From Castor canadensis (Eukaryota > Chordata > Mammalia > Rodentia > Castoridae), in assembly GCF_047511655.1 (NCBI RefSeq), contig NC_133394.1, positions 59,056,501 to 59,120,500 on the forward strand: a DNA stretch of 64,000 nucleotides, read 5' to 3'. Positions 17,341 to 55,743 of this stretch are shown here, piece by piece. How positions within the stretch are numbered: the stretch's first letter is position 1; each line of letters opens with the position of its first letter. The notes beneath the pieces were generated by a model. It ran no database searches. It had not been told where the DNA came from and saw nothing but the letters and a program-made list of their open reading frames with translations. The position numbers and the translations under genes are program-made.

Positions 17341-17342
<2 letters not shown>

Positions 17343-17386
<44 letters not shown>

Positions 17387-19440: not shown

Positions 19441-19448
19441 TCTGGCAT

Positions 19449-26530: not shown

Positions 26531-26538
26531 TCTGGCAT

Positions 26539-27720: not shown

Positions 27721-28629
27721 AAGCTACAAAATTAGGAAATCACATTAAAATGAGAAAAGAAATGTAATATAAAGTAGTCCGAGAATATTACTTAGGTCTG
27801 GATTCCTTGGGTTTGGAGACAATATGCCTTATAAACTATGTTGGGAGCTATTATTACAGTATCAACAGCTTTATTCTTCAAGGATAAGAAAGAGAAATGG
27901 AGCGGCATTTTTAAAACAATAAGCAATACAAAACCTGCAGTTGTTCCTTGTGGGAAGGAGATAAGGCAATTTCTTATTAAGAATGATTTCAGAACCATAG
28001 GCAATGAGTTCAGAAATGCAAGTCAGAACCCACTTTTAGCAAAATCCCCAGGAGTAACTTATGCCTATTAATGTTGAAAAGCACTGGACCAGACAATGGA
28101 AGATGGTTATCAATTGTTATCTACTGATTATCACCACTACATATGAAAATATCTACAGATCTGATAACCCACATCTTTAAAATAGAGTTAAGAGTAGGAG
28201 TGAGGGTAGAAATAAGGGTCAAACTGAAGAAAGAAGGATCATTCCATGGGCGGCTCAATGTATTGGTTACCTAGGACATTGAGCTACACATTCAGGGTCT
28301 GAGTACTGCCTGCTGACAGCCTGGTTATAAGTCCAATCAATTTTTTAAAAATCACAGTTAGATTTTACTTTTACTTTTAGTTTCTGATTCTGTCTTAGGG
28401 TCAAAGAGGACTGCAAATAGTCAAAGGAAGTAGAAAATACAGGAAAGTGAAAAAACAGGTCTCTAAAAGAAATGAAACTTGCCATATTGCCTTGATTCTT
28501 CATTTAAATCGTTGATTTAGCACCAAATCATTCTCCTCATTCTCTGACTTAGTACCCTAAATTCACTACCTGTACCTTCTATGAATAATTGGACTACAGA
28601 CCTTCTAAGAGGTTTTGGGGATCAGCTGG
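27721..28629. other. AT-rich DNA upstream of the CpG island
   Basis: No recognised repeat or exon. It could hold distal promoter elements, but none can be identified from sequence alone. Confidence 0.5.
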
Positions 28630-29500
28630 TTTTCGCTGGCGGAGACACTGCGCGCCCCGCGCCGCAGCCAGGGGGCAGAGTCTGTCTCCGGCGGGCTAGC
28701 GCCTCTGCCCGCTACCTGGCACTCCAGCCCCAGCACCTCCGGCCGGTCCCGGCTTTGGCTTTCCTGGTCCTTTGCACCGGCCAGGTCTCGGCGGAGCCGG
28801 GGATCCCACCGCCAGAAACGCAGGCCGGAGCAGAGGCACCCCAGGCTAGGGAGGAAGGGTGGGCGGCAGAAGGCGGTCGGCTCACCAGTGTGTGGGAGGG
28901 GGATCTGGAAGGAGGGGGTGTCCAGGGACGCAGCAGCCCCGCCCCTTCTCCTCCCCTTCAGAACCCGAGGAGCCGGGAGCATGGACCAAACCCCAGCGGT
29001 GGCACCATGACGCCCGAGCGTTTCGTGCTGGCTCTCATTCTAGGGGCGCTCCCCGAAGTGGTCAGCGTCGATCCGGTCCTCACTTATCCACCTCATCAGC
29101 GCCACCGCCACCTCCACTCGTCCCCTTCAAGTGCTCAGTACCTTTATTCCCTTCCCACCCGGCAGCGGCCACAGAGGACGCCTCCGCCGCCTCCGCTCCC
29201 GCGCCCCCCGCGGGCGATCCCTGCGCTCCAGGCTGGTCACACTCCCCGGCCGCACCCAGGAGGCTGCCCCACAGGAGGCCTGTTTGTCAACGTGACAGAC
29301 TTTGGCGCCCCGTGTCTGCGCTGGGCAGAGGTGCCACCCTTCCTGCAGCGCTCACCCCCGGCCAGCTGGGCTCAGCTGCGAGCGCAGCGCCACAACTTTT
29401 GCAGGAGCCCCGACGGCGCGGGCAGACCCTGGTGCTTCTATGTAAATGCCCACGGCAAGGTGGACTGGGGTTACTGCGACTGCACACACGATGAGTGGCA
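28630..29500 (+). promoter_or_regulatory. CpG-island promoter of PRSS12
   Basis: About 0.9 kb of GC- and CpG-rich DNA begins abruptly near 28630 in otherwise AT-rich sequence and ends just after exon 1. It covers the 5' UTR and coding exon 1. No TATA box is evident, which fits a CpG-island promoter. The transcription start cannot be placed from sequence alone. The retained CpG density is notable because the coding exons downstream have decayed. Confidence 0.8.
29007..29490 (+). pseudogene. PRSS12: PRSS12 exon 1: signal peptide, Pro-rich segment, kringle; donor lost
   Basis: The ATG at 29007 is in a good context (A at -3) and starts the neurotrypsin-like amino end (MTPERFVLALILGALPE). Residues 1 to about 20 form a hydrophobic signal peptide. 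Residues 27-86 are rich in His, Pro and Arg, with PPPPPLPRPP at 59-68. The kringle follows with all six cysteines, at residues 87, 103, 132, 143, 157 and 159, and a possible N-glycosylation site NVT at 95-97. There is no stop or frameshift in 161 codons. The exon should end at G29490, leaving a split Gly codon that exon 2 completes in phase 1. The next bases are ATGAGT where GTGAGT is expected, so the donor GT is now AT. Translation would run on into the intron to a TAA at 29640. The open frame upstream of the ATG has no stop back to 28581, but it lies in the 5' UTR and does not resemble the protein. Confidence 0.92.
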
Positions 29501-31574
29501 TCGGGGCAGTGGTGGCAACTTGGGACTTGCACGGGGCCAACCTGGTTTGGGGAGAGCAGAGATGTTTCTGGGAGACAGAGGGATGGTATGGAGTTTATGG
29601 GATTGCATTTCGGGGCACGGTGTGATGGTTGGCTGCCGCTGATACTAGTGAGGTATATTGGTATAGTAAGTTTAAATTAGCCGTGCGTGCTTTGTGTGAA
29701 GGTTGTCAGATGGGCAGTTTCTGTGCAAGGTTTGAGTTCTGGGTTCCTAGACACTGTCTTTGGTTACTGTGTGTATGTGTGTCCAGCCTTGGCTGGATGT
29801 GTGCATGTTGGTTGTCTGCTGTATTCCGGATCAGCTTGCCTGGAGGGCGTTATTAACATAAAAGAGGAAAAGCTAAGGAAGAGATGAAGTTGCTAATTAC
29901 TTATTTTGGAAAGGAAAGTAGTAAATGTAATATGACCTTCAGCAAACTTCCCTCCCCTCTGTGGACTCCGATTTGGAAAACCGGTGAAATTTTTGCCTTG
30001 CTCCCACCACTGTATTTGAAAAAGTGTGATAAAATTCCCAGGCCAAAATACAAAACTGGTCACATTCTGGGGCACAGAATGGTAAATGTCATCAGTGAGT
30101 GAAGAAAAAAGAAAAGGCCAAGAGGTAGGACTATAAGGAAACAGCTCACCATGGTTAAATGCAGTTTTCAACAATGACATCACTTGCCATTAAATGTCAT
30201 TCGTGGGAAATTGGGCTTAGTTGGTAACATCAGGAAAGAAAGTTGGTAAGATCTGTTAGGTGTGTGATAATAAAAGCATCACATTAATAAATTTAATGTA
30301 AGTGAATATTTTGCCTTTAAACAGTTCTTTATTTTGAAATTGTTGGGGTTTTAATACTTTCTTGTATAACAATTGGGGGAGAAAAATCTTGTGTCCTTTG
30401 AAGTTTGAATTTTTCCTAAAAGATTAAAAAACTGGCAGTTTTTCATCCAAGCTGAATTGGGATCCTGAAACACGTACTTTGTGCCTTTTGAAGGTAATTT
30501 GGAGGTACTTTCCACAATGTCCTTCTTTTCCTTCAGGAATTTTATTTATCTGTGCCTTCAATTGCATTAATGCTTTGAGTTAAAGGAAAGCGATAGGAAG
30601 GTTGAGATCAATTACCCTTCATCCTAGAGAATGAAGTCATTGCTATACTCATGATTCGTGGATGGAATGCCAATGAGCTATAAAAAATTGAGGTGAAGTG
30701 ATATCAAACAGAGAGCCCTAGTATTATCTCATTTACTGTAAGAGATTATTTGTAGTAAAATCTCAAGTCTATTGAGCTGTATTGACAGATATCTTACCTT
30801 CTAATTATTCTTAGTTTTATAAATAGATAAAGGTGAAGAGTTATTAGGGAATAAATGTGTAGGAAAGAATACACGATTTCTCCTTAAATTATGTAAAGAC
30901 ATACTAAAATTGAAATTAAGTTTAAAAAATTATAGTGATTTATTGCTTTTTTTCAGACATAATTAACTTTCAGTTTTATTTTCTTAATGAGGAGAATAAC
31001 TTGTTCTAGTATTCCCCACCACCCCACTCCCTGTAATTGGATAGAAATTTAAATTTTCTCAATGCTTTTAGATTCATAGCTGTCAACAGACAAAACCCCA
31101 AACATTACATAGTAGCTGTGTGTAAGATAATTGAACACAAGAGAAACAAAAGAAAACACCCAGGGAGAGACATAAATGCCCTCCCCCACCAAGAACAAAA
31201 CAAAAACAAAATCAGGAAAGCAATTGTCTATGTAATAATCAAATTACTTTTACAGACTCAGACTTGATAACCAAGGCCTCCCATTCTGTCATTTACTCCT
31301 GCAGGTCTGATTGGGCAAAACCCATACCTTTGAAATGACTTGCAGATTCCAACCCTTAGAACTTTACTATTCTGGCATTTCAATAAGGGGGTTCGAACAA
31401 AAATATTATGGAGTGGTAAAAGAATATTGATTGAGTCGTGCTTTTAGTCTGCAATGCTGGGTAAGACGCTTAACTTTGGTATTCTCCTCTGGAGAAAAGC
31501 AGGTTATGAACAAATTAATTCAAAGGACTTTTCCTGCTCTGCGCATGTACACAAAATGACCTTGCTTAATAACA

Positions 31575-31710
31575 GCTAGGACTTACTGAACACACACTCT
31601 GCACAGGATGCTGGACTAAGCATTTTGTTTGTTTTCTGTTTTAATTTTCATAGCAACCTTATAAAGGAGTGCCAACATTTTACTGTTGAAGATACCAAAG
31701 GCAAATTACC
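31575..31710 (+). repeat. MIR-like SINE
   Basis: TTACTGAACACACACTCTGC, then ATTTTCATAGCAACCTTATA, then an ACTGTTGAAGATACC-like end. Diverged. Confidence 0.5.
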
Positions 31711-32261
31711 AGGAATGAAGGAGAAAATAAGGTTGAATATGTTCATTTTTACTTCTCAGCTCATTTTGTGCTGTTTCTTTACTTATATACCATGTAGAAA
31801 TAGCTGTGCAGTATAGTAATACTCATTTGATAGCTTATGGACTGGTCTCAGAGGAAGAAAGAAAGGAAGAAGGGGAATTATGTTTATAGTACAATGCACA
31901 TTAATTCCAGTCTCTTATGCCTTAAAAATATTTTGTCTTTACAGAAAACCAAGGCAAAGAAAAGAACAATATATAGTAATGCTGTCCCTCCTTTAGAAAA
32001 TAAACTGGTGGCCAGTTTCTAGTTGCATCCAGAGAAATGAGGAAGTTGGTGTGTTCTGGGTGGAGAGTTTGTTGAAGCCAAGTTGAAGGGGCAGGGTGGG
32101 GATCTCAGGTGAGTCAGGGCAGGGCAAGGGCATTCCAGTGGCTCAAATGTCAGAGAACAAGAAAGGTGATGCCCAGACTCTGGCCTTATGAAATTTGTGT
32201 ATTAGTGAAAAAAAAAAAGAAAAGTTTCTGGGGATTGGAATACCTAGGTAGCCCAGGGAGT

Positions 32262-32355
32262 TGGTTCTTGTAATGAGCATTAGAATTACCTAGGGATTTG
32301 TTAAAATGCAGATGTCTGGGCTCTAGCATCAGGGTCCTGAGTAATTTTCACATGT
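32262..32355. repeat. hAT-type DNA transposon fragment (MER5-like)
   Basis: GCATTAGAATTACCTAGGGA, then TTGTTAAAATGCAGATGTCT, then GGGCTCTAGCATCAGGGTC, resembling the interior of MER5-type elements. Confidence 0.5.
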
Positions 32356-32913
32356 GGATCAGGAATGGAATGTACATTCAATTACCTTGCCTACTGGACA
32401 CTCTTTCATGGTCAGTGACAATCGACGGGAGGTCATTCAGAATCCCCTGGAATGTGTAGTGGTGGTGATGATGTGGGCTAACATCATCATTCCATGACTT
32501 CATCCTGCTAGTCTTAGTAGCATGCACAAGGGACCCCAATGGTAACTTTCTGTGTGATTTTAGAAAATGGCACCATTGGAATTTGACCAATGTGAGATAA
32601 CAATAACCTAGATCACTAACTGAATGTGAGCCAGGGTGCCGGCACATTTCTACAGGGAGATTTAACAGGCAACTGACTGATTTCCCACAAGTCCTTGTGA
32701 TAAGTTAGTGCTTCTTGAGTAGGAAGGGTAATCACTTCTCCAGGCTCAGGCTGGCACAGTGGCTGGGGCAACTTGCATGGCACTGTGCTAGAAACACTCC
32801 TTTTTCACAAGCAACCAAGTGGATTAAACCTTTGGAGGTTGACAACTGATAGATAAAACAGACAGAATAAATGATAACCTTCTAATAATTGAAATTTTAC
32901 CAGAGACAATCTG

Positions 32914-33613
32914 TGTCAGTCAGCTCCCTGTCACTGTGACAAAATACCTAAGATAATAAAGTTGAAAGGAGGAAAGATTTCTTTATATATGGTGGTATTG
33001 GGGTTTGAACTCAGGGCCTCTTGCTTGCTAGGCAAGTGCTCTACCACTTGAACTATACCATCAGCACTTTTGGTTTTAGCTAATTTTTAGATTGGGTTTC
33101 TCATTTTTTGCTCATGGTGGCTGAACTGTGATCCTCCTCCTTTGCCTCCCTTAGTTGGGATGATAAGAGCCTACCACCACACCGGTTTTTTTGTTGAAAT
33201 GGGGGTCTAGCTAAGTTTTTGCCTGGAATGGCTTCGAGCACTGATCCTCCTGATCTCTGCCTCCTGAGTAGCTGGGATTAGAAGGGTGATCCACTATGGA
33301 GGAAAGACTTATTTTGGCTCACGGTTTCAGAGTTTCAGCCCATGGTCACTTGGCTCTGTAGGTTTGTGATGAGGCAGAACCACTTGGTTCTGAGCAAAGC
33401 TGCTCACCTAACTTCAATTTCAGCCAGGAAGCAAAGAGAAAGAGTTTGAGGGGGTCTCAATATCCCTTCAATGGCATTCCCCCAATTACCTTGTTTCCTC
33501 TGACTAGGCCCCAACTTCTAAAGGTTCTACCACCTTTCCAATAGTGCCATAAGCTGGCAACCAAGCCTTTAATATGTGGCCATTGGGGAGCATCTAAAAT
33601 CCAAACCATAACA
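32914..33613 (+). repeat. Old interspersed repeat (family not assigned), interrupted by a SINE
   Basis: The two arms, 32914-32977 and 33298-33613, join once the SINE is set aside. The joined sequence matches the repeat at 53480-53970: GTCACTGTGACAAAATACCT-type start, GTTTCAG and GGTCACTTGGCTC blocks, then CCTTTAATATGTGGCCATTG and CCAAACCATAACAAAA at the end. Confidence 0.75.
32978..33297 (-). mobile_element. Composite SINE inserted in an older repeat
   Basis: Reversed tRNA part (TTGGGGTTTGAACTCAGGGC), then reversed 7SL dimer (TGGCTGAACTGTGATCCTCC and GCCTCCTGAGTAGCTGGGAT). The direct repeat GGAGGAAAGA at 32968-32977 and 33298-33307 is the target-site duplication and fixes the ends. Confidence 0.9.
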
Positions 33614-34477
33614 AAATGATTTCCAGTTCTGATTTTGTGGTTGTTAAATCATGCTAATCTGCTCATATGCACCTACTCACCGCAGATCTCTTCCTTCCAA
33701 CAGAGATGGTGGCTTGTCGGCCAAATACTGTTTATAAACTGTCCTCTTTGAAGTTCTTCTGCTGTTTGAAAAGAATGTTAATTAAGAAGTTAGCTGAAAG
33801 CTTCCCCCACCTCTCCGCCTTTTAATTCTGCATCTTGATTTTATGTAGTAGGTGTTGAAAAACATTTATTGGCAATACCAGATTTGATATATTTCCTGGC
33901 TGGATTTTAAATATGGAGCTCAGTCTGGCTAAGGCTTCTGTAAAACATTTAGATTTAGGGCATTATTTGACTCTGAAGTAGTGTGAACATCTTTTGTTTT
34001 AAGAAGAAAATAAGTTATCCAGTTTCTATTACTTTTTATGAGATATTGCCTGGCCAGGAGTATGTTTACTTATGTGGTCACTGACCTGTGTGTGTGTGTT
34101 TATGGTAATTTTGCAAATGTAGTTTGGTTTACAACTGTGAGGACAAAAGGAAATATCCAGTAATAATGTACTATTTATAGGTACCTTCTTTTGATGGATA
34201 TAATGCCTACACTAAAGTAATAACTGTAAAGATTACATACATAAAATGGAAAAATAATTATAATAATATTAAAAGCAAAATATGGGCATACATTATAAAC
34301 ATGATTGTGAAAATAATGAGACTTGTTAATAATTTGGGAAAGAAAACAAATGATAATTATGAGTTTGAATATGAATGTGGTTTGACTTAATTACATTGAT
34401 TTCAGTGGCAAAAAATAGACAACCCAATTCAAAATGAGTGAAACAGTCAGAGATTAATTTCTATTTTAATTTAATTA

Positions 34478-34572
34478 ATTAATTTTTAAATTTTATTGCA
34501 TTGGGGTTTGAACCAAAAGTCACACACATGCTAGGCTAACACTCTACCATACAGCTACATCCTCATCCTTAA
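34478..34572 (-). mobile_element. tRNA-derived (ID-like) SINE, reversed
   Basis: An AT-rich tail (AATTAATTAATTTTTAAATT) is followed by GCATTGGGGTTTGAACC, then ATGCTAGGCTAACACTCTAC, the reverse of an ID-type A-box region. Confidence 0.75.
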
Positions 34573-36640
34573 ATTTATTGTTTATATTACAAGAGGTCCA
34601 TCTGATTGGCTGCCTCCATCAGAGGCAGTTCTGTTCCACACTGTTCTCTTGGCTTCTCTACTTTCTATGTGGGGTTTTATCCTTAGGCTCCACTTAGAGA
34701 TAAGGCAACCTACAGGAGAAAGAAAAGGCCCCTCTCCCTGTGAAAGAGCAAAGAAAACTTTCTAGAATTTCTTCGCAGACCCCTCTACTATTTCATTGAC
34801 CAACACTAGATCACATGTTACTTTATGATTCTCTCTAGAAAGGAATAGCCAATGAGCCATACCTAGGTTAATAGGAAGCAAGGTAGTTCTTAAGGAGAGC
34901 CAACAGGTTTTGCTAAGGAACATGTTTAGGATTTATTCTTATATTTGGGAAACAGTGCAATTAAAAAGTAAGTAATCTAAAATACCATGCTGTGAAATTC
35001 TACATCCTTTTCTTTTTATCCGTATCTAAATGAATAATATTTAGACCCTGATTTGGTGGAGAAAACATATTGTCTTGTTTTAATATGCTATCTGCAGCAA
35101 ATATTACTGACAGATTTATTTCTATAATAAATAATTCCATAACAGTTGAGAATACCAAAGTTAGTTCAATTGTTAGGTTAAAATGATTTATTAATATTTT
35201 TTAAACATTTTTGTTCTAAGTGCAGGGAAGCAGTTTTTAAAAACTTTTCTTGCTACTCTGAATAGTAAACAAATATTCAGATGTTTACTATATGAACAAC
35301 TGATGTAGACTGCCTTTTACATGGTTGATACAATGATGTTAGAACATCAGGAAATGCTTATTTTTGCATCTTTAGCACCTAGTGTTCAAGGGCAGATCCT
35401 CCTGTCTCCCCTCCTCCTCCTTCCTGCAAATTGATACAACAATATTAATAAAACTTCATTGTATTCAAAGCACTAAAACCATACAAACCATACAGGTATA
35501 TTCATCCAGAATACTTTCTATTAGGATCATAAAAGGGGACACCAAAGGTGGTGGAAAATACTGATTTCTGTATTGGGGCAAGGATAGATTACTGAACACT
35601 CACTGAGTTTACAGTAGATGCAGTATATCCCAAGATAAATAAAGGATCACCTGACCTGTGTTTTCTAGTTGAGCTGTCTCAAGAATAATAAATGTTTTTA
35701 TTCCCTTCTCTGTGGTCCATGCTCTGTAAGACAGATAAGGGGATTACTATTCGGTTAATTTCATCACTCAGTGTTGTGCAGTGAACTGTTTACACAGCAT
35801 CGCTTGTGCATGTGTAAATGTTTCTGGGACACACAATTTGTGAGTTTCCTGCATACGTTGTTAGTATGCCAGAACTTAACCATGGATAAAGTCTTCTTTA
35901 ATGGACATCATAGAATATTTTAAACTAAGGAATAATTCATAAGATATATAAATTTCTAATAAGCACAATGTAATGGATAGAACTGGTTATCAAGAGGATA
36001 TTCTCTCATTTTGAATTAGACCAATTCAGACTTTTTTGGGCATTAAAGGTAGGTACATGAATAATAAATGAACAGTTAATATGAATTATAGATGTGAACT
36101 AATGGAGGCAAGTATAGTTTGGTTGGATATTGGTTCAGGGAAATGCCTTGTATGTTAAAAGATGATTTGACCAGGGGCTATTTGAATAAAATTTACTATT
36201 TCTCTGTGCTAAAACAGATTTAAATTATAGATCAATTGTCAATATAATTATAGATAAGAATAGTATAGTACTATCAGAGAGTGTGTAGAAAAAAACATGA
36301 ATTTTTTCCCCTCTTTACCAAACTGTTATTTTAAAAGATTTAAAAAATATTTATTACTAATTTTCTTCAGAAAACTACTGGAATAGGTCTTTGTCTTTGC
36401 TGCTTTTTCTTCCTTTAAATGAGTGTATGTTAGTTTATTAGTACATTTTAATTAGTTAATTGAATTGGCTTATCTTTTCAGTTGCTCTCTTTTGGAAAGA
36501 TCTGAATGTACAGAATAAAGGTAGTTGACCTATTTGATTCTGTTCCTAATATTTCCTTTGGGCCTCCTTGACTTAAGGAGTATAGGAAAAGAAGCTTGTC
36601 TACCTGGCCAAGGAGGGTTAATACCATAATGGTCCCATTA

Positions 36641-37012
36641 CTTTATTAGGGCTACAGTAAGTACCACAGAATGAATGGCTTATAGAAAAAAAAACTTCAA
36701 GATCAAGGTGTTGGCTGAATAAATTCCCTCTGAAGGCACTGGGGAAGGATTTGTTCCAAGGTGCTCTCCTAGTTCCTTGGATTATGGGAGAATAACTCCA
36801 GTACTTACATGGCATACTCCCTGTGCGTGTCTCTCTGTCCAGATTTTCCCTTGGTATAAGAACACAGACATAATGGATTATGGCTCACCCCAATGACCTC
36901 ATCTTGACTTGCTCATCTACAAAGGCCTTATTTCCAAGTAAGATCAAATTCATAGGTATTGGCGATCAGTACTGTGACATCTCTTAGGCATGCACAATTC
37001 AGAAACAGCAGC
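36641..37012. repeat. Old mammal-wide repeat (family not assigned)
   Basis: TTAGGGCTACAGTAAGTACC, then AACTTCAAGATCAAGGTGTT, then CAAAGGCCTTATTTCCAAGT and CAGTACTGTGACATCTC. The order is familiar from old mammalian repeats, but I cannot name the family safely. Confidence 0.5.
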
Positions 37013-37594
37013 CTTAAAGAAGAAAAACTAATGAGATTTGTGAAGGGAATTTTAATCCCCTTAGCTGTTCTTTTCTAGTTTACCTTGCATTAATTGAGAC
37101 TGGTAAGATGGTTAAAGACAACCCTTGAATGTCAGTTTTCAAATTTCTATTTCCTAGCAAAGTTGTCAGTGAAGCAAATTTTTATAACATACATCCATGA
37201 ATCTGTTATATTTATGTTCTTTTATGAAGCTGTAGATATGTTAACATAGAATAAAAATATAAAGTAAAATAACAATAAGTTAAACGTTTTTGCCAAGGAA
37301 TTAAGAAACAGAATTCTAAGCACTGTTGCACGTTGGTACTTTTCTGCCATGAAGTAAATAGTTGTGATACCAGCAGTGAGTGACTGTGGTTTGTCTGTTT
37401 GTTTTTTTAGCAATTCCTTTCATGAACTCTGGGGGCTCTTTTCTTTGATATGCCATCACACACAACCTTCACAGTTCCAGACTTTTGTCCATTACTGATT
37501 GGCTCTATACATTCATAATGACTAATACAGTTGACCTAAAACCTCTGTTTGAGATTGTAAATTTTAAATTGTCATTGTGAGGGTTTTTTAAAAA

Positions 37595-37818
37595 TTTTTT
37601 TATTTTTTTCCCCTTGGCAGTATCTGGGATTGAACCCAGAGCCTCATGCTTGCTACTAAGTGCTCTGTCATCTGAGCCACACTCTCAGACCTTCTGTTTT
37701 TCTGCTTTTGAGGTAGGGTCTGGCTAACTTTGTCTGGGGATTGGCCTGGAACTTGCAGTGCTTCTGCCTCTGTCTCCCAAGTGCAGGGATAACAGATATA
37801 CATTGCATGCCACTTTCA
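37595..37818 (-). mobile_element. Composite SINE, reversed
   Basis: It starts at the T-rich end (37595), then the reversed tRNA part (GGGATTGAACCCAGAGCCTC) and the reversed 7SL part (GAGGTAGGGTCTGGC, then CTGCCTCTGTCTCCCAAGTG). Confidence 0.85.
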
Positions 37819-37904
37819 TATATTTTTAAAAAGGTGTTTCAACTAATTCTTAGAAGAATTGAGAATTTCATAAAATTATATGCCATGAAAGAAATACAGT
37901 GAGT

Positions 37905-38020
37905 AGGCATGGTGGTGCAGTACTATAATCCCAGCACTCAAGAGGCTGAAGCAGAAGGATCAGTGTTCTAATTCAGAGTAGGCTACACAGTGAAAATCCT
38001 TCTCAAAAAAAAAAGAGAAA
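37905..38020 (+). mobile_element. B1-like SINE with a purine-rich tail
   Basis: GGCATGGTGGTGCAGTACTA, then ATCCCAGCACTCAAGAGGC, then an A-run that grades into a long GGAA/GAAA purine repeat (to 38108), probably grown from the SINE tail. Confidence 0.88.
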
Positions 38021-38108
38021 GAAAGAAAAAGAAAGGAGGAAGGAAGGAAGGAGGAAAGGGAGGGGGGACAGAGGGAGAGAGGGAGGGAAAGAGGAAGGAA
38101 GGAAAGAC
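38021..38108. repeat. Purine-only (GGAA)n-type repeat
   Basis: An almost pure G/A stretch follows the B1 tail. The strand is purine-only apart from a few bases. Confidence 0.95.
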
Positions 38109-38195
38109 TTATCTATGTAGATGGTTTGCTTGGAACACTAGAAATTTTTGTGGCTCTCAAGGGAAAAAGCCATCTGTAGAGGGGCACTGCTAGGA

Positions 38196-38198
<3 letters not shown>

Positions 38199-38249
<51 letters not shown>
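38199..38249. repeat. (GT)n microsatellite
   Basis: 51 bases of GT, 90 bases after the purine tract. Confidence 0.98.
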
Positions 38250-38251
<2 letters not shown>

Positions 38252-39629
38252 TGGGGGAGTTGGCTGGTCCTGTGCTGGGAGTGTAATCTGACAGAGAATT
38301 CACTAGTCATTGACATGCAAATTACCTTTTCAGAATCACAAATATTTGTATTCATTTTTTTAAAGAAAATTGGCTGATACCCCACAGTTCTTGCCACACA
38401 GCAGATGTCGCTAAATGAATCCAGGCTTTCACAGTAAGTTTGGAGCATTTGCAAAAAGATGGTGCAGCTGATAGTTGTCTTGGAAACATTTCCAGCTCTA
38501 TCATTGCCATAGAATGTCACGGTCATCATTGTACTGGTGTTTTCTCCTCATCTCTAGGTGCCTCACTCATTTGAATGATATGTGCACATCATTTCTTCTT
38601 GATAGGTTTTTGGTTTTAGCACTATTTTAAATGCCTAAGCACTTAAGTGTCTTGACATGCATAAGTAGAATTCTAGTTTGTTTTTGCTGCTAGAACTTTC
38701 TTCCAATCCTTTGACATGTAATTTGGTAGTGGTGGGGAATGAATAAAGAGGATAAGAGATTAATTTAAATATCATTTTCAGTAAAGTCTGAGGTGAACAA
38801 ATGAACTGTCGATTAAAAAAATAAAGTGGTGTTTTTGATAGCCATATTTTGTGGTCTCTGCAAAAGAGGTTGTGTGATTTAAAAATCTGTAAAGTTCATT
38901 TGAACTCTTCAGACATTCTGCATTTTAAACACATTCTGCACTTGACACGTTTGACTGTGCTAATCAGGGTCTGCTGTGGCTTAGTCAGACTTTACAAAGT
39001 TTAGAATGTGTGCTTTTGAGATGATCTGTCCTATGAATGATCCAGGCCCATGTTCTCTCCTGAATAATCAGGAATTGGCAGTGCAGTGTTTACCTCCATT
39101 TATTATTGCCTTTTGTTGGAATTCAGTTGGACTTTGTCATGAGAAATGTGATTTTTTTTAAATGCTTAAATTTTTTAAGGATGATGATATGGAAAATAAT
39201 ATGGTGGGTGGGTAAGCCAGTACAAATGAAATGAATGGGTAATATATGAACAGAATACTTTTGGAAAATTATCATAAAGCCTTACATAATAATTTTGAAA
39301 CGTGCAAATTACATCAGAATTTTTTGCAAGACTTATTTTTTTCTTCTTGATTTCCTAAATTCTTAACCTATGACATAAAGGACACCATGGATGTTTTTCA
39401 GCAGAATTTTATGAAATTTTAAGTTTGAGATAGAGTCAATCTCTGATTAAATACTCAATTGCTATGTTCCAATGCTAGCTGTGCAACCAGTCTCATGGAG
39501 AAGAGTGAGAAGAGGAATGCAGGGTCTTAATTAACACTTAAAGTCAGAAGAAAACTTAGTGTTTTCTTTGCTAGGGGTGCTTGAATTCAAATTTTGACTT
39601 TTTAAAGACTAAAAAGAATGACTCAGATT

Positions 39630-39695
39630 GTGGGCTGTGGGACAGCTCAGTGGGAGTCCTATGTAAGAGGACTTGAATTTCCAGGGTTATTCAAT
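39630..39695 (+). mobile_element. Possible degraded ID element
   Basis: GGGCTGTGGGACAGCTCAGT resembles the ID start, but the B-box region is weak (GAATTTCCAGGGTT) and there is no tail. Confidence 0.3.
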
Positions 39696-40111
39696 TATAA
39701 CAAACCACACTGCTGAGTGGCTATTATCTTAAGACTAATACTAGGCAATGTTTTCAAAACTAGCATCTTTTTGAAATTCTGAACATATACTTTAGAGTTT
39801 TTATGATTATTGTTTGAGGTTAAAATTGGAAAATGTACTTATTGTTCTCTAGTGGATGAACAAATCAAATAGAAGGAAGATATAATGTAGCTATTTACAG
39901 CTGATTTATAAGCAAGAGCATCTAACTTTGTTTCTGTTTCTTATGGATGACCTCATGTGAAGATGGAAGGTAATATATAATAAGAACTTCATATGTGATG
40001 TAATCTAATATTTGACTGCAAGATCTGATACTAGTCATTCTCTTCTGCTGTCTCTCTTTAAAAATTATAATTGGACTCTCTTTGTGCCTAGATAAAAAGA
40101 GAAAGTATAAG

Positions 40112-40215
40112 GGTTAGGGATGTAGCTCAGTGGTAAGTGTTTGCCTAATATGCACAAGGCCCTAAGTTCAATCCCAGAACCATCAAAAAGAAGAAAAGAG
40201 AGAGGGAGAGAGAAA
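40112..40215 (+). mobile_element. ID element
   Basis: GGGATGTAGCTCAGTGGTAA (tRNA-Ala-like A box), then GGCCCTAAGTTCAATCCC (B-box region), then an A/G-rich tail. It sits in PRSS12 intron 1, about 220 bases before exon 2. Confidence 0.88.
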
Positions 40216-40432
40216 ATATAATTAGCACTGATCTCAGGTTGTTAATTTAAAAAAATACAGTGTGCTCAATCCTCATTTGAAGAAAGAAGCATACTGTGCA
40301 CACACTGGAGGCTGAATCAGCCCTACTGAATGCCTTTCCACTTAGGGTAAAAATCAGGTGAACCCAGGACTGGCTTAGAATGTTCACTTAACTATGTGCT
40401 GTTATAAGGCTTGGGATTCTTTTCTACTTTAG

Positions 40433-43251
40433 GGGTATTATGACTTTATGGTGGGAAAAGTGAGTTTGATAAATGTAATACATCATATTAACAGAAGCAA
40501 AGACAAAAACCATTTGATCATCTCAATAGATGTAGAGAAAGCCTTTGGTAAAAATCAATACCATTTCATGATAAAAGTTCCGATGAAACTAGGAATGAAA
40601 CATAATAAAGGCTATATATGACAAACCTATAGCCAACATCATACTTAGTGGGGAAAAACTGAAACCATCTTCCCTAAAGTCAGGAACGAGACAAATGTGC
40701 CCACTCTCTCTACTCCTATTCAACATAGTTTAAAATTCCTAGCCAGAACAATAAGACAGGAAGAAGAAATAAAAAGAATGCAAATAGGAAAGGAAGAACT
40801 CAAACTATCCCTCTTTGCAGATGACATGATCTTCTACCTAAAAGACCTGAAAAACTCCACCAAAAAACTCCTAGACACCATAAACAGCTTCAGCAAAGTA
40901 GCAGGATACAAAGTCAACTTACAAAAATCAGTAGCCTTTCTATACACCAACAAAGAACAGTTTGAGAAAGAATATAGGAAAACAATTCCATTTACAATTG
41001 CTTCCAAAAAATCAAATACCTAGGAATAAACTTAACAAAAGATGTGAATGATGTCTATAAGAACTACAAACCACTGAAGAAAGAAATTGAAGAAAACTTC
41101 AGAATATGAAAAGATCTCCCATGCTCATGGATTGGTGAAGTCAACATAGTAAAAATGGCTATTTTACCAAAAGCAGTCTACACGTTTAATGCAATTCCCA
41201 TCAAAATCCCAATGACACTCATCACAAAGATAGAAAAATCAACCCCATAGGTTTCTGGAAGCACCAAAGACATCAAATAGCTAAGGCAATACTGAGCAAA
41301 AAGAGTAATGCTGGAGGTATCACACAATACCCATCTTCAAACTATACCACAGAGCCATAGCAATAAAAAAAAAACCATGGTACTGGCACAAAAACAGATA
41401 TGAAGACCAGTGGGACAGAATATAAATCCATGCAACTACACCCACCTAATTTTTGACAAAGTTGCCAAAAACAAAGGATAGAGAAAATACAGCCTCCAAC
41501 AAATGTTGCTGGGAAAACTGGATATCTGCTTGCAGAAAACTGAAACTAGATCCATGTTTATCATCTTGTACAAGTATCAACTCAAAGTGGATTAAAGACC
41601 TTAATATAAGACCTGCAACCTTGAAGCTAGTACAGGAAAGAGCAGGGAATACATTGGAAGCAGTAGATACAAGCAAGGACTTCCTCAATAGAACTCAAGT
41701 GGCTCAGCAACTAAGAGAAAGGATGGACAAATGGTACTACATGAAATTACAAAGCTTCTGCACAACATAAATGGTTTCTAAATTGAAGAGGCCATCCACA
41801 GAATGGGAGAAAAATCTTTGCTATCTATACATCTACCAAGGGATTGATAACCAGAATATACAGGGAGCTCAAAAAAACTATACTCCCCAAAAAATCAATG
41901 ACCCAATGAAGTAATGGGCAAATGAATTGGACAGAGTCTTTTCAAAGGAAGACCAAATGGCTAAAAAACACATGAAGATATGCTCAACATCCCTGGCCAT
42001 AAAGGCAATGCAGATCAAAACCACACTAAGATTCCACCTTATTCCTGTTAGAATAGCTACTATCAAGAACACAAACGACAACAAATGTTGGCGAGGATGC
42101 GGGGTGTGGGGAGAAAGGAACCCTCTTATGCTGCTGGTGGGCGTGTAAGCTAGTACAACCACTATGGAACACAATATGGATGCTTCTTAAAAATCTAAAA
42201 AAAGACCTGCCATAAGATCCAGCAGCACCATTTCTAGGGATACACCTGAAGGATTGTGAGTCAGTTTACAACAAAAGCACTGTACACCCGTGTTTAGTGC
42301 AGCGCTATTCACAATAGCTAAGCTATGGAAACAGCCAAGATGCCCCACTACTGAAGAATGATTAAGAAAATGTGGTGTTTATGTGCAATGGAATTTTACT
42401 CAGCCATAAAGAAGAATGAAATTTTGTTATTTGCAGGTAAATGGATGGAACTGGAAAACATCATCTAAAATGAAGTTAGCGAGACTCAGAAGGCCAAAAG
42501 CTGCAGGTTCTCTCTAATATGTGTAATATAGACCTAACACAAATGCAGCAATATTGTGAAACACTGGCCACACTAAGGGGAGATCATGCATGGGAAGGTA
42601 TGGAAACTAAGAACTTGAACAGGGTTCAAGGATACTATACAAGAATGACTATAAAAATAATCTGACTGAAACTACCATGAGAAAGGGATTAAGGTAGAAT
42701 GAAGAAAATAAAAGGAGATAAACCATTTGGGGTTATAATACATATATATGTGAAAATATCACAAGGAAACTCCCTGTGTAGCTACCTTTATCTCAAATAA
42801 GCTAAAATGTCATGTTTTTTGTTTTATCTTTTTTCTTCTATAAAATCAGAAAACAGGAGGGTGGAACAAGTCCTGCTGGGGGGAAGGAGGGGCTGGCACC
42901 AGTGGAAGTGGGGAGGTGTTTGGAAACGGGGGTAGGAGGGTGAATATGGTGCAAAAAATATGTAGATAAGTATGTAAATGCAAAAATGATACCTGCTGAA
43001 ACTACTCCAGGAATGGGGAGTGGGGGGTTGGGGCTGAAGGAGAATGGTAGAGGAGGTGAATTCATGTATGATATATTTGGTACATTGTTAAGAACTTGTG
43101 CAAATGCCATAGTGTACCCCCACACATCAAAATAATAAAATAAAATAAAGTGAGTTTGAAGGCACAGGGGAGATGAAGGTTGGGGCACAGTCTATAACAG
43201 CCCCCAGGATGATCCTGATGTATCAGTTACTTGTCAATAGCTGCAGTTGGC
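40433..43251 (+). pseudogene. PRSS12: PRSS12 exon 2 (SRCR1, first half), split by an L1
   Basis: The exon starts after AG at 40432 and its first half reads LYGGKSEFE in frame (human-like LRGGKNEFE), preceded by TGA at 40441-40443 where neurotrypsin has Arg. At 40469 an L1 interrupts it. The target-site duplication AAAGTGAGTTTGA (40457-40469) recurs at 43147-43159, and the exon resumes at 43160 with GT. The second half reads WGTVYNSPQDDPDVSV, then a TAG at 43238-43240, then LQL. The normal domain has Cys where Tyr now stands (43193-43195). The GAG of EFE (43152) and the TGG of WGT (43181) are 29 bases apart and in different frames, about 10 bases fewer than expected. The exon ends at 43251 with an intact GTGAGT donor, phase 2. 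Confidence 0.9.
40470..43146 (+). mobile_element. 5'-truncated L1 inserted in PRSS12 exon 2
   Basis: This is a forward L1 starting inside the ORF2 reverse transcriptase. The catalytic FADD motif is at 40814-40825, followed by the thumb and carboxy-terminal coding region with several stops and frameshifts (for example 40697-41023 and 41453-41770). A G-rich 3' UTR (about 42850-43060) and an A-rich tail (AATAAAATAAAATAAAG) follow. Perfect 13 bp target-site duplications flank it (40457-40469 and 43147-43159), so the boundaries are exact. The copy is diverged and cannot move. Confidence 0.95.
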
Positions 43252-43284
43252 GTGAGTTCACCCACATCTGACCCAATCAGTTTG

Positions 43285-43525
43285 CTAAGACAGTTGTGTA
43301 CTGCTTGATGACATTTTTGTCCACATAAGAGATGGAGGTCCCTTAAGATTATAATGGAACTGAAAAATCCCTCTCACCTAGTAATTTCATTTTGCCTTTC
43401 TCATGTTAATCTGCTGAGATGCACAAATACTATCATGTTACAGTTGATTACAGTATTCAGAACAGTAACATGCTGTGTAGGTTTATAGAGCAATAGGCCA
43501 TACCATAAATATTAGGTGTGTTCTA
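43285..43525. repeat. DNA-transposon fossil (family not assigned)
   Basis: TGTGTACTGCTTGATGACAT, then CCCTTAAGATTATAATGGAA, then CATGCTGTGTAGGTTTATAG and GAGCAATAGGCCATACC, an arrangement found in widespread old mammalian DNA elements. It lies right after exon 2 of PRSS12. Confidence 0.5.
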
Positions 43526-43964
43526 GGCAGCCATTCTTCCTTCCTTATTGTCACTTTGCTCATTCTCTCTTTTCACAAAAGAGCTGGAAAGAGAGGTCCC
43601 CAAAAGGAAGAAACCAATTTTTCCCCACACACAAATGTACTTCACACATTACCACCTCTGGTGAACTAGGAAATGGGCTGATTGTCATGGGCAAAACCTT
43701 AAAGAATCTTTTGATCATTGTTTTTAACAAAATAATTGTTTAGGCCTAGGAAGCAAGTCATTTACTCTGTGAATTATGATATCTGTGCCGTTCTTAGTTG
43801 CTATCATTTGCTTTTAGCTTTCTACTTTCAGCCTCCCACAAATCCCATTTCTTGGTATGTGAAAGAGACAATGCTTCCTGTGCTGTCATCACCTGATGAG
43901 TAAAGAGTTATGTCCAGGACTTAGGTTCCTGCAGTGAGAAGGTCCTGTGGGAGGTGACTCCTTC

Positions 43965-44024
43965 TGTCAGCCTCCCCAGTAGCTAGGATTGTAGGTTTGA
44001 GCCATGGTGCCTGGGTTATATGCA
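43965..44024 (-). mobile_element. B1-like fragment, reversed
   Basis: CCTCCCCAGTAGCTAGGATT, then GAGCCATGGTGCCTGG, the reverse of a 7SL-derived SINE start, directly upstream of a forward composite SINE. Confidence 0.65.
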
Positions 44025-44044
44025 CTGTCTTTAAAATGAACCAG

Positions 44045-44191
44045 TGTAGCTGGTAGCTGGAGGCTCACATCCGTGATGCTAGCTTCTCAGGAGGCAAAGA
44101 TCAGGAATATTGTGGTTCGAAGCCAGCCCTGGGCAAATAGTTTTCCAGACCCTATCTTGAAAATACCCAACACACACGCGTGCACACGCGC

Positions 44192-44228
<37 letters not shown>

Positions 44229-44318
44229 CACACACACAAAAGAATTGGCTAGTGGAGTGGCTCAAGAGCTCCTGCCTAGCAAGCATGAGGCCCTGAGTTC
44301 AAATCCTAGTACTGTAAA
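44045..44318 (+). mobile_element. Composite SINE with a CA repeat between its halves
   Basis: 7SL part (GGAGGCTCACATCCGTGATG, then GACCCTATCTTGAAAATACC), then an (AC)n/(CG)-bearing microsatellite (44169-44240), then the tRNA part (GAGTGGCTCAAGAGCTCC, then CCCTGAGTTCAAATCC). The linker A-run seems to have turned into the microsatellite. Confidence 0.85.
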
Positions 44319-46036
44319 ATGGACCACTGTTTACTTACTCCCACCAGTTCCAACATCTTTATGTTTTTCACCATAGGATTTTTCCAGGAGGAGAAGGCTC
44401 CATTTTGGAATAAAAGGTTTTATTCTTGTTCTTCTTATTGTTCCTTTTTTGCATCTTATGTTTTTCTTAAGTACACATATGTGTTTTTCTTGGCCTTTGT
44501 TTTCAGAAAGCATGGAAGCTATCTTATTATGAAAAGTACAGGTCTAAAAGCTGGAAAAGGCTTTGCAGCTTGCAAATATTTTGGATTAATAATCAATGAG
44601 TGTTAATAGGTAGAATGATGATTCAAGTGAAGAGGTTGAACTTCAATTTGCCAAATTCCTTCTGTCTCCCCACTGGGAAGATGGAGATTGAGTTCTTAAT
44701 AAAGACAAATCTGAAGGCCTAAGATTTGTTCAGACTTTAGGTTCTATTAGAGCAGCAAATAAGGTTAATTTACTATATTAAAATTAATTATTTTTCTTTA
44801 ATGGGAGTTGGTAAAAAGTAGTGAAAGAGTAAGGGAGGTCAGGGCCTATGAAGTGTATGGTGCTTGTAAATGTTCATTGCTGATTTCATCAATGAATATT
44901 TCATCCTACAAACAGTCAATGGTGGGTGGGCAAGCCTTAAAGAATGCTTATTTGAGGCATTCTCCTTTGAGGGCCAGCCAATGTAATAAATTTGTATGTT
45001 GGGTGTCAGTGTACATACCCACATGTGCTTTCTCTACCCTGAAAATCAGAAAAGAATACAATATCCTATGAGACACAAAGAGAACGAGAACGATAGCATA
45101 GTTGTAGTTATTAGTCTTTTGACTGACCACAGGCTCTGAACTATCATCCAGCAAACATAAACTTCAAGTAAGTCCATCTGATTGCTTATATCATCTTCTG
45201 GTGACTATTGTTTTTATATACAAGAATTGCACAATAATTGCACAGCTACGGTGCTGTGAAGATACATTCTTATTTTGGATAGCTCCCAAATGTTCACTGT
45301 TTGCTTGATGAAAGCTGTAGAGGGAGACAATTATAGAGATTACCATATTAATCATATAATTTTGGAATCTTTTTAACATTTAATATCAATTTGTACACAT
45401 CAGAGTTTATCTATAAAAATATGTGGAATAGAAGAGCCAAAAGAGGATCCCATCTGCATGTTATTATTTTATTAATCAGTGTCGCAGTCTTGCCAGCACA
45501 ATTCTATATAAAAGATATTTTTAAATGCTAATGGGTCTTCTCTATATATTACTGTTCTTGGATGTAATAATAATCCATTTGAAAAGGGTAATCCAAAATA
45601 TTGGAGTAGGAAAAAGTCTTCAACCATGCTGACTTCTCTTTTTACACGTTAGAAGACACAGCCTTAGAGGGACTTACAGCTCAGTGTGATTGTTAGCTGA
45701 GTCCAGACCAGCATTCAAGCCTCACTGGTCCTGGTGACACACTTCTTGCACAAAACCACACAGACTCCCCTTTTACACCAATAACTTCATCATTTTCTTC
45801 CAGATCAGTCTTATATAGTGAAAGCTCATACAAATATCTATTCAAGATTGATCACAAAGTTACTATTTTATCAATCCAATTCTAATCTCATGTTTTTATT
45901 CCCTTGAAATTTATATAATCTAGTGCTTTTTCCATTCCTTCCTTCCCATCCATCTTTATTGATTTCTCCCATCTTTAAAAATCCAAATACTCTGGTCAAA
46001 AAATTTTGCTTACACTTGATAAATCTGTATTTCCAG

Positions 46037-46214
46037 AAGAAAAGGAATAGTAAAATAAGCCCTGTTTTCTGGATGGGCCCTTATTCCCATTTATTGGAGC
46101 AATATCTGTTGCCAAGGAGATGAAGAAAATATATTGCTTTGTGAAAAAGACATCTGGCAGGGCAGGTGTGTCCTCAGGAGATGGCAGCTGCTGTCATGTG
46201 TAGCTTTTTCCATG
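46037..46214 (+). pseudogene. PRSS12: PRSS12 exon 3 (SRCR1, second half) with stop, frameshift, lost donor
   Basis: After the acceptor at 46035-46036 the frame reads RKGIVK, then TAA at 46056-46058 where neurotrypsin has Gln, then FSGWALIPIYWSN and GDEENILLCEKDIWQG, a close match to the second half of SRCR1. A one-base deletion near 46164-46168 changes frame, and the match continues one frame over as VCPQEMAAAV, then MCSFFH. The exon should end at G46214 (phase 1), but the next bases are GA, not GT, so the donor is lost. Start and end phases match the neighbouring exons, which confirms the assignment. Confidence 0.93.
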
Positions 46215-46349
46215 GATCAAAAAATTCTTTTGTTTTAGTTTCATGATTCCAAATGATAAAAGTGCTCTAGTTAAATCATTCCCTTAATGAGTTTAAGTGC
46301 AGAAATAAATTTAAATCATCATATTTCATCATTCAATGACATAATCTTC

Positions 46350-46440
46350 AGGACAGGAGGTGCAGTTCAGTGGTAGTGCACTTGCCTATCATGTGTGAGA
46401 CCCTGGGTTCAATAACCAGTATGGAAAAAAAGAAGAAAGA
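46350..46440 (+). mobile_element. ID element
   Basis: GGTGCAGTTCAGTGGTAGTG, then GACCCTGGGTTCAATAACC, then an A-rich tail (AAAAAAAGAAGAAAG). It sits just after PRSS12 exon 3. Confidence 0.85.
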
Positions 46441-47953
46441 CAGTCTTCAACATGAGTGCATCTAACTCTTTGAATTTTATTTGGTTTTCAAATAGTAAGT
46501 TTTGTTACAGAAATATTTCATACTAGATAAGTAACACTTGTTTTGGAAATGGGAAATCATGATGGAAACAAAATGGGAAATCATTATCTTGAAGCCAAAT
46601 ACAAAATACAACTTTATGTAAAAGTATGATCATGTATCAGTGTTCTTTGATTGTAACATTCCCTAAAAATGGATTGTTAGCTTCTTATAGACTCCTTACT
46701 AGGTGTGTGGTAATTAACAGTATGGTTTAAGTACAAAATATTTATTTATATGTTCATATAAACATATTCAGAGGAATGAACAGCTATTCTTTAAGTTGGT
46801 ACATGGGTTTTTCTGGGGAGCACAGTTATTGTTATAGACCACAGTCTGAGGTTATCACATCTTACAGTGCTGCATTTTGTATTTTCCATGGAGACAGCAG
46901 CATGACCAGATGTCCCAGGACTTGACATGCTAGTGGGCAGCTCGGGAAGTGGTTTTTGTTTGAGCACAGTTATCTGGAAGGTGGGAGTGGGGTGGCATAA
47001 GAAAAGCTCCCACCACAAGACAAACAGAGACCAAGTAAGAATTTGTCTTAGGGCACAGTGACAGATCTTTAATACATTTTTTTAATTTGGGAATTACATT
47101 TAGTGTCTTGTCATCTGGTAATTGTAGCTTTCCCAGTACTTAGGAGGTAGATCGTGTACAAGGGTTGGACATAGGAACTAGCAGCAATGTAAATGAAAAC
47201 GTGGAGAGTTTTATTTATCTATAAAGTAAAATATGAGTCAATTCCTTTACTAAATTTCCTTTCAAACGTTTTTTGTGTGTTTGTTAAGAAAATGAGGATA
47301 CTATCTCAGTTTTATCCTTGTGGTTTTCTATGTTTTCTACATTTTAACAACCAGGAAAAAAAACATGTTTTAAAATAAAGTATGACATAATTGTAAAATG
47401 AAAGGTAATATGTCAAAAAGGCTTTAAGTTCTAGGTGATTTGAAATTTCCTCTCAAAAAATTTTTTTTATTATCTCCAAGATTACCATGGCAAAGAGAGT
47501 ATATTGATTAAGAAAAAATACATTTTCTATCATTTTTCTGTATATTCCAAATTTTAAAGGAAAAATACACATCATACATAAACATCATAACGAGAATTGT
47601 GTGTCATCATTCAGTCATATATATCAAGTCCGTTTTTATCCTTTTACAAATTGTAAGCATGAGTTATATAAGTAAACTATAGTATAAATATCAGTATGCA
47701 AGTATATGCAAATATTTATCCATTTGAATTTCTGCTGTAATACTTAAATATGATATTTAAATTTAACTATGAATATCCAGATGTCACTTACTGACAACCA
47801 CTCACACTGTGGAGAATTAGAAGCATATTTCATATGGGTAAATGATTAGCAAAATATGCACGACCCAACCTGTTCACTTTTACCATATTACATCCTTTAG
47901 TCCAGCAAAATCAGGCTACCTTATTGTTTCCCAAACATGTTCAACTTTTGCTT

Positions 47954-48175
47954 CTTTTTTTTTTTTTTTTTGGCAGCACTGGGGTTTGAGCTCAGGGGCT
48001 CATGTTTTCTATGCAGGCTTTCTACTGTTTGAACCACTCCACCGACCCTTTTTTGTGTTGGGTATTTTTGAGATAGGGTCTTGCGAACTATTTGTCTGGG
48101 CAGAGATCCTTCTGATCTCTGCCTCCCAAATAGCTAGGATTATAGGCGTTGGACACCAGTACCCAGATTGCTTCT
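47954..48175 (-). mobile_element. Composite SINE, reversed
   Basis: A T-run (47955-47972), then GGGGTTTGAGCTCAGGGGC, then GAGATAGGGTCTTGCGAAC, then CTGCCTCCCAAATAGCTAGG. Confidence 0.88.
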
Positions 48176-48179
48176 ATTC

Positions 48180-48430
48180 TTTTGTTCAAACTATTCATTT
48201 TGCTGGAACACACTTCCTCCTCTCTGACTTCCAAAATCCCTCTGTCCATCTTTTTCCAAGGGATTCCCTAATGACCTCCAACTAATATAAGCTCCTTTGT
48301 TTCTAAACTACAGCAGTTTTTTTTGTTTTGTTTTGTTTTGATAGTCTCCTATCTTTACTCATTTAATCCACATCCTTAGGCAATAAAATTCTTGAGGACA
48401 GGCTCTGTTTAGTACACCTAGAGTGACCTA
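48180..48430 (+). repeat. L2-like fragment
   Basis: GCTGGAACACACTTCCTCCT, then CATCCTTAGGCAATAAAATT, then TTGAGGACAGGCTCTG. It directly follows a SINE and has a (TTTTG)n run at 48318-48340 inside. Confidence 0.5.
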
Positions 48431-49257
48431 GGGGTGTTCATTGCAACACCTTATATCTGAAGATGGTTAACATCTGTTTGTTAACCTGAATGCATAGACC
48501 TTGTGTATTATTTTTCCTTGTTTGAGGTATCCTTGTAGGTTTTTAGCATCACTTGCTAAATCAGCTAGTCAACAAATACTTATTACATGCCTTCTGTATA
48601 CTAGGTGCCTGAAATACAAAAGTAAGAAGGATAGGCAGTATTTTTGTCTATTCTAGCCAAGAGGGATAATTTCATGCAAATAATGAGTGACAGTTTTAGA
48701 TAAAGTAAATACTGTGAGGAAGACAGAATTAGGCAATATGGTGGGAAGTGCCTTAGGAAGTTCAGATTTAGCTAAGGCAATCAGGTCAGGCCTACTAAGA
48801 GACCTTTCAGAGTTAAGCACCACATGCGGAGAAGGCAACTGTGTCAGCATCTGTGGGACTTTATTTCAAGCAGAAGCACAGCAAGAACAGGACTCTGAGG
48901 TGAGAACCAATGTGAAGAATTGTGGGGACAGAAGGCTGAGGATGTTGTAGTCCAGCATGGAGACAGAGAAGTTTGGGGACTGACAAGGGCTGAATCAGGC
49001 TACTGCAGACTATGGGAGTGTAGCCATCACTGGTGGTTCTTTAACAGAGGAAATGAATTTGAACTGATTCATGCCCAAAAGAATTTTCAATATTGTATTT
49101 TGGAAATCCAGGCCATAATATCCACCAACTTGCTGTAATGACTTCAATGGTAATTTTGACTTGGTTTCTACAAATATAAAAATAATTCTGTACTTCTGTA
49201 CTGTAAATAGCTAGGTTATAGACACAAGTACCATTCTTAATAATTACATATTTGGTT
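48431..49257. other. Intron 3 DNA, possibly an old repeat
   Basis: The stretch 48480-49030 has the feel of an ancient mammalian interspersed repeat (CAGAAGCACAGCAAGAACAG, GGGCTGAATCAGGC), but I cannot name it. Open frames there are unsupported. Confidence 0.35.
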
Positions 49258-49480
49258 CCTGGGCACTGATGGCTCATGCCTATAATCCTAGCAACTTGGG
49301 AGACTAGATTGGAAGGATCTTGGGTGGAGGCCAACTTGGACAAATAGTTCTTGAGACCCCATTTCCAAAATAACCAGAGAAAAATGGACTGGAGGTGTGG
49401 CTTAAGTGGTAGAGCACCTGTGTTATACGTGCAAAGCCTTGAATTTAAAACCCAGTCCTACCAAATAGGTATATAAATAA
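49258..49480 (+). mobile_element. Composite SINE
   Basis: CTGATGGCTCATGCCTATAA (7SL part), then GGTGTGGCTTAAGTGGTAGA (tRNA part) and an A-rich tail with AAATAAATAA. It lies 320 bases before PRSS12 exon 4. Confidence 0.88.
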
Positions 49481-49798
49481 ATAATATGTTGGTAATGCCC
49501 AAGTTGCTTTAAATAAAATAAAAAATCAATGCCTGTACTACACCACTGTAAAACATTAATCATGTTTCCAGTAATCTGCAGTTTTTTGTGAATCTTTTCT
49601 AGTTTCTGAGGTTGTTGTAGAAAAGTGAATTTAGCCTATTTCCTCTGAAGGGCTTTTTGTATGAAAATAATTTGATTTGCAGTACCGTAATATATATTAG
49701 ATATACATGTGTATGTTCATACCACTTGTTTGGCTTAATAAATATTAGGGGTTGATGCAAAACCAGGTTTAACCTGTTTTAAATTTCCCACCGCACAG

Positions 49799-49949
49799 GT
49801 CCAGCATTGCCTGTCATTCGCCTTGCTGATGGGAGCAGCTGGTGTGAAGGTCAAGTGGAGCTGTACCATGCTGGCCAGTGGGGGACCATCTGTGATGACC
49901 AATGGGATGATGCAGATGCAGAAGTGATCTGAAGGCAGCTGGGCCTCGG
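49799..49949 (+). pseudogene. PRSS12: PRSS12 exon 4 (SRCR2, first half) with stop at a conserved Cys
   Basis: The exon opens after ACAG at 49798 in phase 1 and reads [20 protein letters not shown], then [19 protein letters not shown], the characteristic start of an SRCR domain. The next codon is TGA (49930-49932) where the family has an invariant Cys (ICRQLG), then RQLGL. It ends in phase 2 at 49949 before a GT (GTTTGT, a weak donor). Apart from the stop the frame is open for its whole length, so it is better kept than exon 2. The second half of SRCR2 (exon 5) was not found between 49950 and 64000. Confidence 0.93.
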
Positions 49950-50675
49950 GTTTGTTTTTACTGCTCTTATTTTGTTTAAGTTTTGAATCTATTTTTTTCC
50001 ATACCCAAAGGCAGGTGCTGTTTGTTTAAGTTGCACATTTCCTTGAACATGTAGAAAAAAACTACCTTTTGATCTTTGTACTGTAGGCTGCAGGCTACCA
50101 GAAGAGAACTATGTAAGTTTACCCCACCTGTGTCTGAAGAAGAGTGATTTTATGTCACTAAGAAGCTTTTACTACTTTTTATATTGTTCCCAGGTAATGA
50201 TCAGCACTGTGAATCACATCAACTTAATCTGTTAGCTTATAACTGAAGCTTAACTCCTGTTCCCCAAATAATGCCTCAACTTTTGAACTTGCTTCCTTAT
50301 TTGTTAGGTGCATGCTTAAAACAGAGGATGTTTTACTAATGTATGCAGCAAGTAATTTCCATGTAGGGAGTGGAAATGAAAGCTATGCAACAAAGAGAGC
50401 AGTGTGAAAATCAGCATCCCATGTGGTCTCAGTAGTGACTATTGGACTGCTGTTATAACTTCATATTTCCTAATCCCTTCCTTTTGTGATGCTGAACACT
50501 GGCATAGCAAGACTAAAAGTTAATCTAAAATTATATTAAGGGTCTTTTAAAAGCTACTATTTTAACGTCAAATTTAAAAAATACTTCATTTAGTCCTTTG
50601 TGGGAGGCCCCTTGCAATGAGAGCTTCCCTATGCACATATCATTTTGTCCAAATAACCTTTTTCCTGACCCCTGA
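49950..50675 (+). other. Start of PRSS12 intron 4
   Basis: AT-rich unique-looking DNA after the exon 4 donor. I looked for the second half of SRCR2 and did not find it. Confidence 0.6.
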
Positions 50676-55730: not shown

Positions 55731-55743
55731 GAATAATGTTCTT

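Follow-up and report, generated by a model that had tools for sequence, protein, structure and literature searches.

A dead, truncated PRSS12 duplicate in an amplified array and, 8.2 Mb away, a PRSS12 locus intact where readable and predicted to encode a three-SRCR neurotrypsin

The window, meaning the whole analysed stretch of 64,000 nucleotides, carries on its plus strand a PRSS12-derived block (28634..62557) with exons 1-4, which blastn identified as duplicated from a PRSS12 locus. The blastn matches end at 28634 and 62557, and the left edge of the block lies in the 5' flank, 373 bases upstream of the ATG. Exon 1 (29007..29490, +), presumably coding for the signal and proline-rich parts as well, has an open frame and returned the neurotrypsin kringle PDB 2k4r on top of 94 matches (E 1.4e-36), with a Pfam Kringle score of 41.9 bits. 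It is followed on the same strand by the left (40433..40469, located by alignment) and right (43147..43251) parts of a dead exon 2, by a dead exon 3 (46037..46214), exons 2 and 3 both being SRCR1-coding, and by exon 4 (49799..49949), which holds the first half of SRCR2. With a provisional human PRSS12 protein sequence as probe, tblastn placed exons 1, 3 and 4 in order, at E 1.8e-73, 3.4e-19 and 1.9e-20, respectively. The right part of exon 2 gave a weak match by itself (tblastn E 0.05) and was assigned from its order and position. This order, together with the best match of the exon-1 kringle, confirms the naming of the feature as PRSS12 in the first-pass annotation.

The copy is a gene fragment, with exon 4 present and the subsequent SRCR and trypsin exons absent. 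Exons 5-13 were looked for beyond position 64000, and no probe match was found within 10 kb past the window end; nor did a genome-wide search for the SRCR family, which gave at least 118 matches from 150 scored candidates, include any match on the window's contig (C9) in the interval from the window's exon 4 to the neighbouring copy at 59.80 Mb. At window position 32989-33063, on the minus strand, a tRNA-Ala (AGC)-like match was seen, which is probably a tRNA-derived short repeat and not a gene.

Nine lesions had been listed for the four exons by the first-pass annotation, and 9/9 were read directly in the sequence. The donor immediately after exon 1 is AT (29491..29492, +). Exon 2 has a TGA in its left part (40441-40443), an L1 element at about 40470..43146 (+) for which AAAGTGAGTTTGA forms a 13-base target-site duplication, a change of frame from its left to its right readable part (43161-43181 as judged by eye; from 43181 on, the right part follows the probe in a frame of its own) and a TAG in its right part (43238-43240). 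Exon 3 contains a TAA (46056-46058), has one base fewer than its relatives near 46165 in the alignment and shows GA at its donor position at about 46215, and exon 4 contains a TGA (49930-49932).

SRCR-family search and alignments combined revealed at least eight loci with PRSS12 exons in this assembly, of which one is intact where readable. Five exon-4 matches with one TGA each, the window among them, lie on C9 at 59.1-63.7 Mb, and matches split over several exons lie at C9:50.85-50.88, C1:106.17-106.19 and C3:96.22-96.25 Mb. The copies on C3 (96.20-96.28 Mb) and C1 (106.17-106.21 Mb) are dead, having a TGA in exon 9 in common and further lesions of their own. Protease exons are kept in the C3 copy, the exon 7 of which was not found by blastn; exons 1, 12 and 13 of the C1 copy were not found in the 50 kb examined and probably lie beyond that stretch. 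With introns included, the block in the window is 97.7% identical to the C3 copy, 97.7% to the C1 copy (47510-62557 only), 98.1% to the copy at C9:50.8 Mb (35522-62557) and 98.3% to the exon-1 stretch of the latter (blastn). Site patterns in two blocks group the window with the C9:50.8 Mb locus, and C3 with C1, at 31 of 33 informative two-state sites, and uncorrected distances over four blocks are 0.9-1.3% between the window and the C9:50.8 Mb locus and 1.6-1.8% between the window and C3.

The C9:50.8 Mb locus (50.825-50.897 Mb, minus strand, same contig as the window and 8.2 Mb away) was read with exon edges placed from the splice consensus and the provisional probe. Joined in phase, its 11 exons (1 and 4-13) give 2292 nt and 763 amino acids, with no internal stop and 59 of the 763 residues unread, and all splice signals are kept (GT donors 10/10, AG acceptors 10/10). 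The unread stretches are equal in length to their C3 counterparts, so that no length change is seen in them. Eight exon stretches were searched separately, all eight scoring over the Pfam cut-offs for kringle, SRCR or trypsin; a kringle, three SRCR domains and a trypsin domain are thus found in an open frame. Exon 8 matched the PDB neurotrypsin SRCR chain 6h8m with E 1.8e-29, placing it tenth of 25 by whole-chain score, and the nine chains ranked above it match exon 8 in three to eight stretches each. Over the last exon, 102/102 residues are the same as in the provisional human sequence; searched alone against the PDB, this exon gave kallikrein-, factor XI- and urokinase-type chains as its best matches, with no neurotrypsin chain among the best 60 of 451. 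The segments TAAHC, DIAL and GDSGG, which we take to hold the catalytic His, Asp and Ser, are present.

Amino acid differences between the intact copy and each dead copy were compared with the probe wherever they map to it. The residue of the intact copy is that of the probe at 25 of 34 differences from C3 (the dead copy's at 6), at 22 of 25 from C1 (dead copy's at 2) and at 6 of 11 from the window (dead copy's at 2). The counts for C3 and C1 are not independent, owing to their common branch, and the window's 6 versus 2, being small, carries little weight. Where C3 and C1 share a codon that differs from the intact copy, 12 differences are replacement and 2 silent, numbers that alone cannot place the changes on either side.

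Comparison of the lesions in exons 2 and 3 was made between the window, C3 and the intact locus. Six of the nine lesions are common to all three by alignment (TGA 40441, the exon-2 L1 at the same site, the exon-2 frameshift, TAG 43238, TAA 46056 and the GA donor of exon 3), and all six sit in the SRCR1-coding exons, which are dead in 3/3 copies where both were compared. As the intact locus also carries these six, they are uninformative on the death of the window copy, and they show that SRCR1 was dead before the duplications. The other three, namely the AT donor of exon 1, the one-base deletion near 46165 and TGA 49930, occur neither in the intact locus nor in C3, and TGA 49930 is lacking in C1, too. 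The description of the lesions as independent therefore needs correcting on account of the six, while the verdict that the copy is a dead pseudogene stands. With introns aligning at about 98%, a parent open where readable and disabling lesions that this parent lacks, the window copy classifies as a duplicated (unprocessed) pseudogene; a processed copy was rejected based on the retained introns.

The pseudogene is part of an amplified unit that spans window positions 145..64000 and continues past the window end. At least five copies of it are present on C9 at 59.1-63.7 Mb, the other four being at 59.80, 61.29, 62.21 and 63.67 Mb; the unit is longer than 64 kb and occurs in both orientations, and sampled pieces show 99.4-100% identity. 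Identity to the window is 99.4-99.9% in six pieces taken from the flanks of the other four copies. The left edge is at window position 145, where the match stops in 3/3 pieces crossing it, and on the right side 2/2 pieces (from the 61.29 and 63.67 Mb copies) match across the window end, reaching at least 1.2 kb past it in one and 0.9 kb in the other. Exons 1, 3 and 4 of these four copies were read as well; their 1-kb exon-1 pieces are 99.8-99.9% and their exon-3 pieces 99.6-100% identical to the window. The AT donor of exon 1, the one-base deletion in exon 3 and TGA 49930 recur in 5/5 C9 copies, window included, and hence are real and older than the recent amplification. In the copy at 59.80 Mb, exon 4 has lost one further base at its end, a deletion absent from the other seven copies aligned.

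At the right junction, an apparently full-length L1 with an A-rich tail begins at 62557 (+), its 5' part filling the window to 64000 and the element ending about 5.75 kb farther on. This L1 is young; it is 96.6% identical to a C3 L1 over its last 5.75 kb. Its A-rich tail adjoins AAAAAGCTG; the corresponding C3 sequence is located 6.4 kb downstream of exon 13. In C3, about 43 kb separates the two points joined here, an interval that holds exons 5-13 (exon 7 not found there). L1 insertion prefers TTG/AAAA-like sites, and the tail is at such a site; no target-site duplication was seen, and the flanks are apart in C3, the one relative compared. Judging from this arrangement, exons 5-13 of the window copy were probably removed by an L1-linked deletion. 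It is also quite possible that these exons were lost via repeat recombination or at the duplication breakpoint and that the L1 at 62557 arrived later, given that the left junction lies within an older L1 of opposite orientation and that such repeats foster recombination. However, the tail adjoining AAAAAGCTG at a TTG/AAAA-like site, with no target-site duplication seen, is what insertion with deletion leads one to expect, and such an insertion explains the junction in a single step.

The lesions themselves are known from one assembly, which could raise suspicion of assembly or sequencing errors; yet the three copy-specific lesions recur at 5/5 separate places and the other six in 3/3 copies compared, leaving this explanation a practically negligible probability, as the first-pass annotation had also held. 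More far-reaching was its proposal of a natural loss of PRSS12 in the lineage, according to which every copy, the one at C9:50.8 Mb included, would be dead. The dead SRCR1 exons in all three copies compared, the stops that C3 and C1 carry of their own and the fact that the C9:50.8 Mb copy is unread at 59 of its 763 residues speak for it, but that copy is open through 11 exons, keeps all splice signals and retains the TAAHC, DIAL and GDSGG segments, which renders loss in the lineage highly improbable. An intact PRSS12 elsewhere in the genome is the very finding that the first-pass annotation had named as contradicting its reading, and a copy of this kind, open where read, is in place 8.2 Mb from the window. 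We conclude that the window very probably holds a dead, truncated PRSS12 duplicate restricted to exons 1-4, and that the copy 8.2 Mb away, defect-free where read, is a predicted three-SRCR neurotrypsin gene. The animal has likely not lost the neurotrypsin protease.

In the intact locus, the dead SRCR1 exons are still recognisable, one of them split by the L1 with its 13-base target-site duplication. Exon 1 ends in phase 1 and exon 4 starts in phase 1, and both phase and splice signals fit an exon 1-exon 4 join; skipping of exons 2 and 3 is thus predicted to leave the kringle, three SRCR domains and the protease. We infer that the intact gene would splice exon 1 directly to exon 4, as implied by the domain layout in mouse and rat. 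One source ascribes only three SRCR domains to mouse and rat neurotrypsin, with one absent, and reports that no trace of the absent one was evident in the genomic sequences of the two species (PMC3927609); elsewhere the number of neurotrypsin SRCR domains is given as 3-4 (PMC9616769) and PRSS12 is described as duplicated in birds (PMC2865498). With three SRCR domains in mouse and rat neurotrypsin, loss of the SRCR1 module is compatible with a working gene. It is likely, then, that a working neurotrypsin gene of a mammal other than mouse and rat has shed SRCR1 while keeping two dead SRCR1 exons, one L1-split, in its first intron, and that the 'murine' domain loss is wider than thought, readable as a fossil and datable across relatives. 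No title among the literature matches listed dealt with PRSS12 duplication or with SRCR1 relics outside mouse and rat. What we regard as mildly new is that SRCR1 has been lost, its relics still visible, in a mammal that we take to be neither of these two, since no such relics are reported there (PMC3927609); the rest is an ordinary duplicated pseudogene.

The following order of events would accommodate these data. SRCR1 would have decayed before duplication of the PRSS12 locus (divergence about 1-2%). In one of the duplicates, the AT donor and TGA 49930 may then have arisen and exons 5-13 have been lost, probably when an inserting L1 deleted about 43 kb. Finally, copying of this dead unit would have placed it at five or more sites within C9:59.1-63.7 Mb.

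What looks like a multiply broken gene can be the sum of an ancestral domain already dead and a dead duplicate, and recognising this keeps natural PRSS12 loss from being reported in error. By way of the SRCR1 fossils, the loss of one neurotrypsin domain could be timed, and the dead units, five of them nearly identical on a single contig, are the mark of a segmental-duplication array of young age.

In comparison with known systems, the window copy shares with duplicated (unprocessed) pseudogenes in segmental duplications the retained introns, the 1-2% divergence from the parent and the local amplification of a dead copy, with no fundamental difference. As in L1 insertions with target deletion, an L1 with an A-rich tail joins points about 43 kb apart in C3, with no target-site duplication seen; that such an event took place here is probable, judging from one relative. 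Exon order, kringle, SRCR2-4 and protease are the same as in human PRSS12 (NETR_HUMAN), which differs in having four SRCR domains, SRCR1 being dead here. Mouse and rat PRSS12 match in kringle, three SRCR domains, trypsin-like protease and the absence of one SRCR domain (PMC3927609); unlike there, two SRCR1 exons are still recognisable here in the intact locus and its copies.
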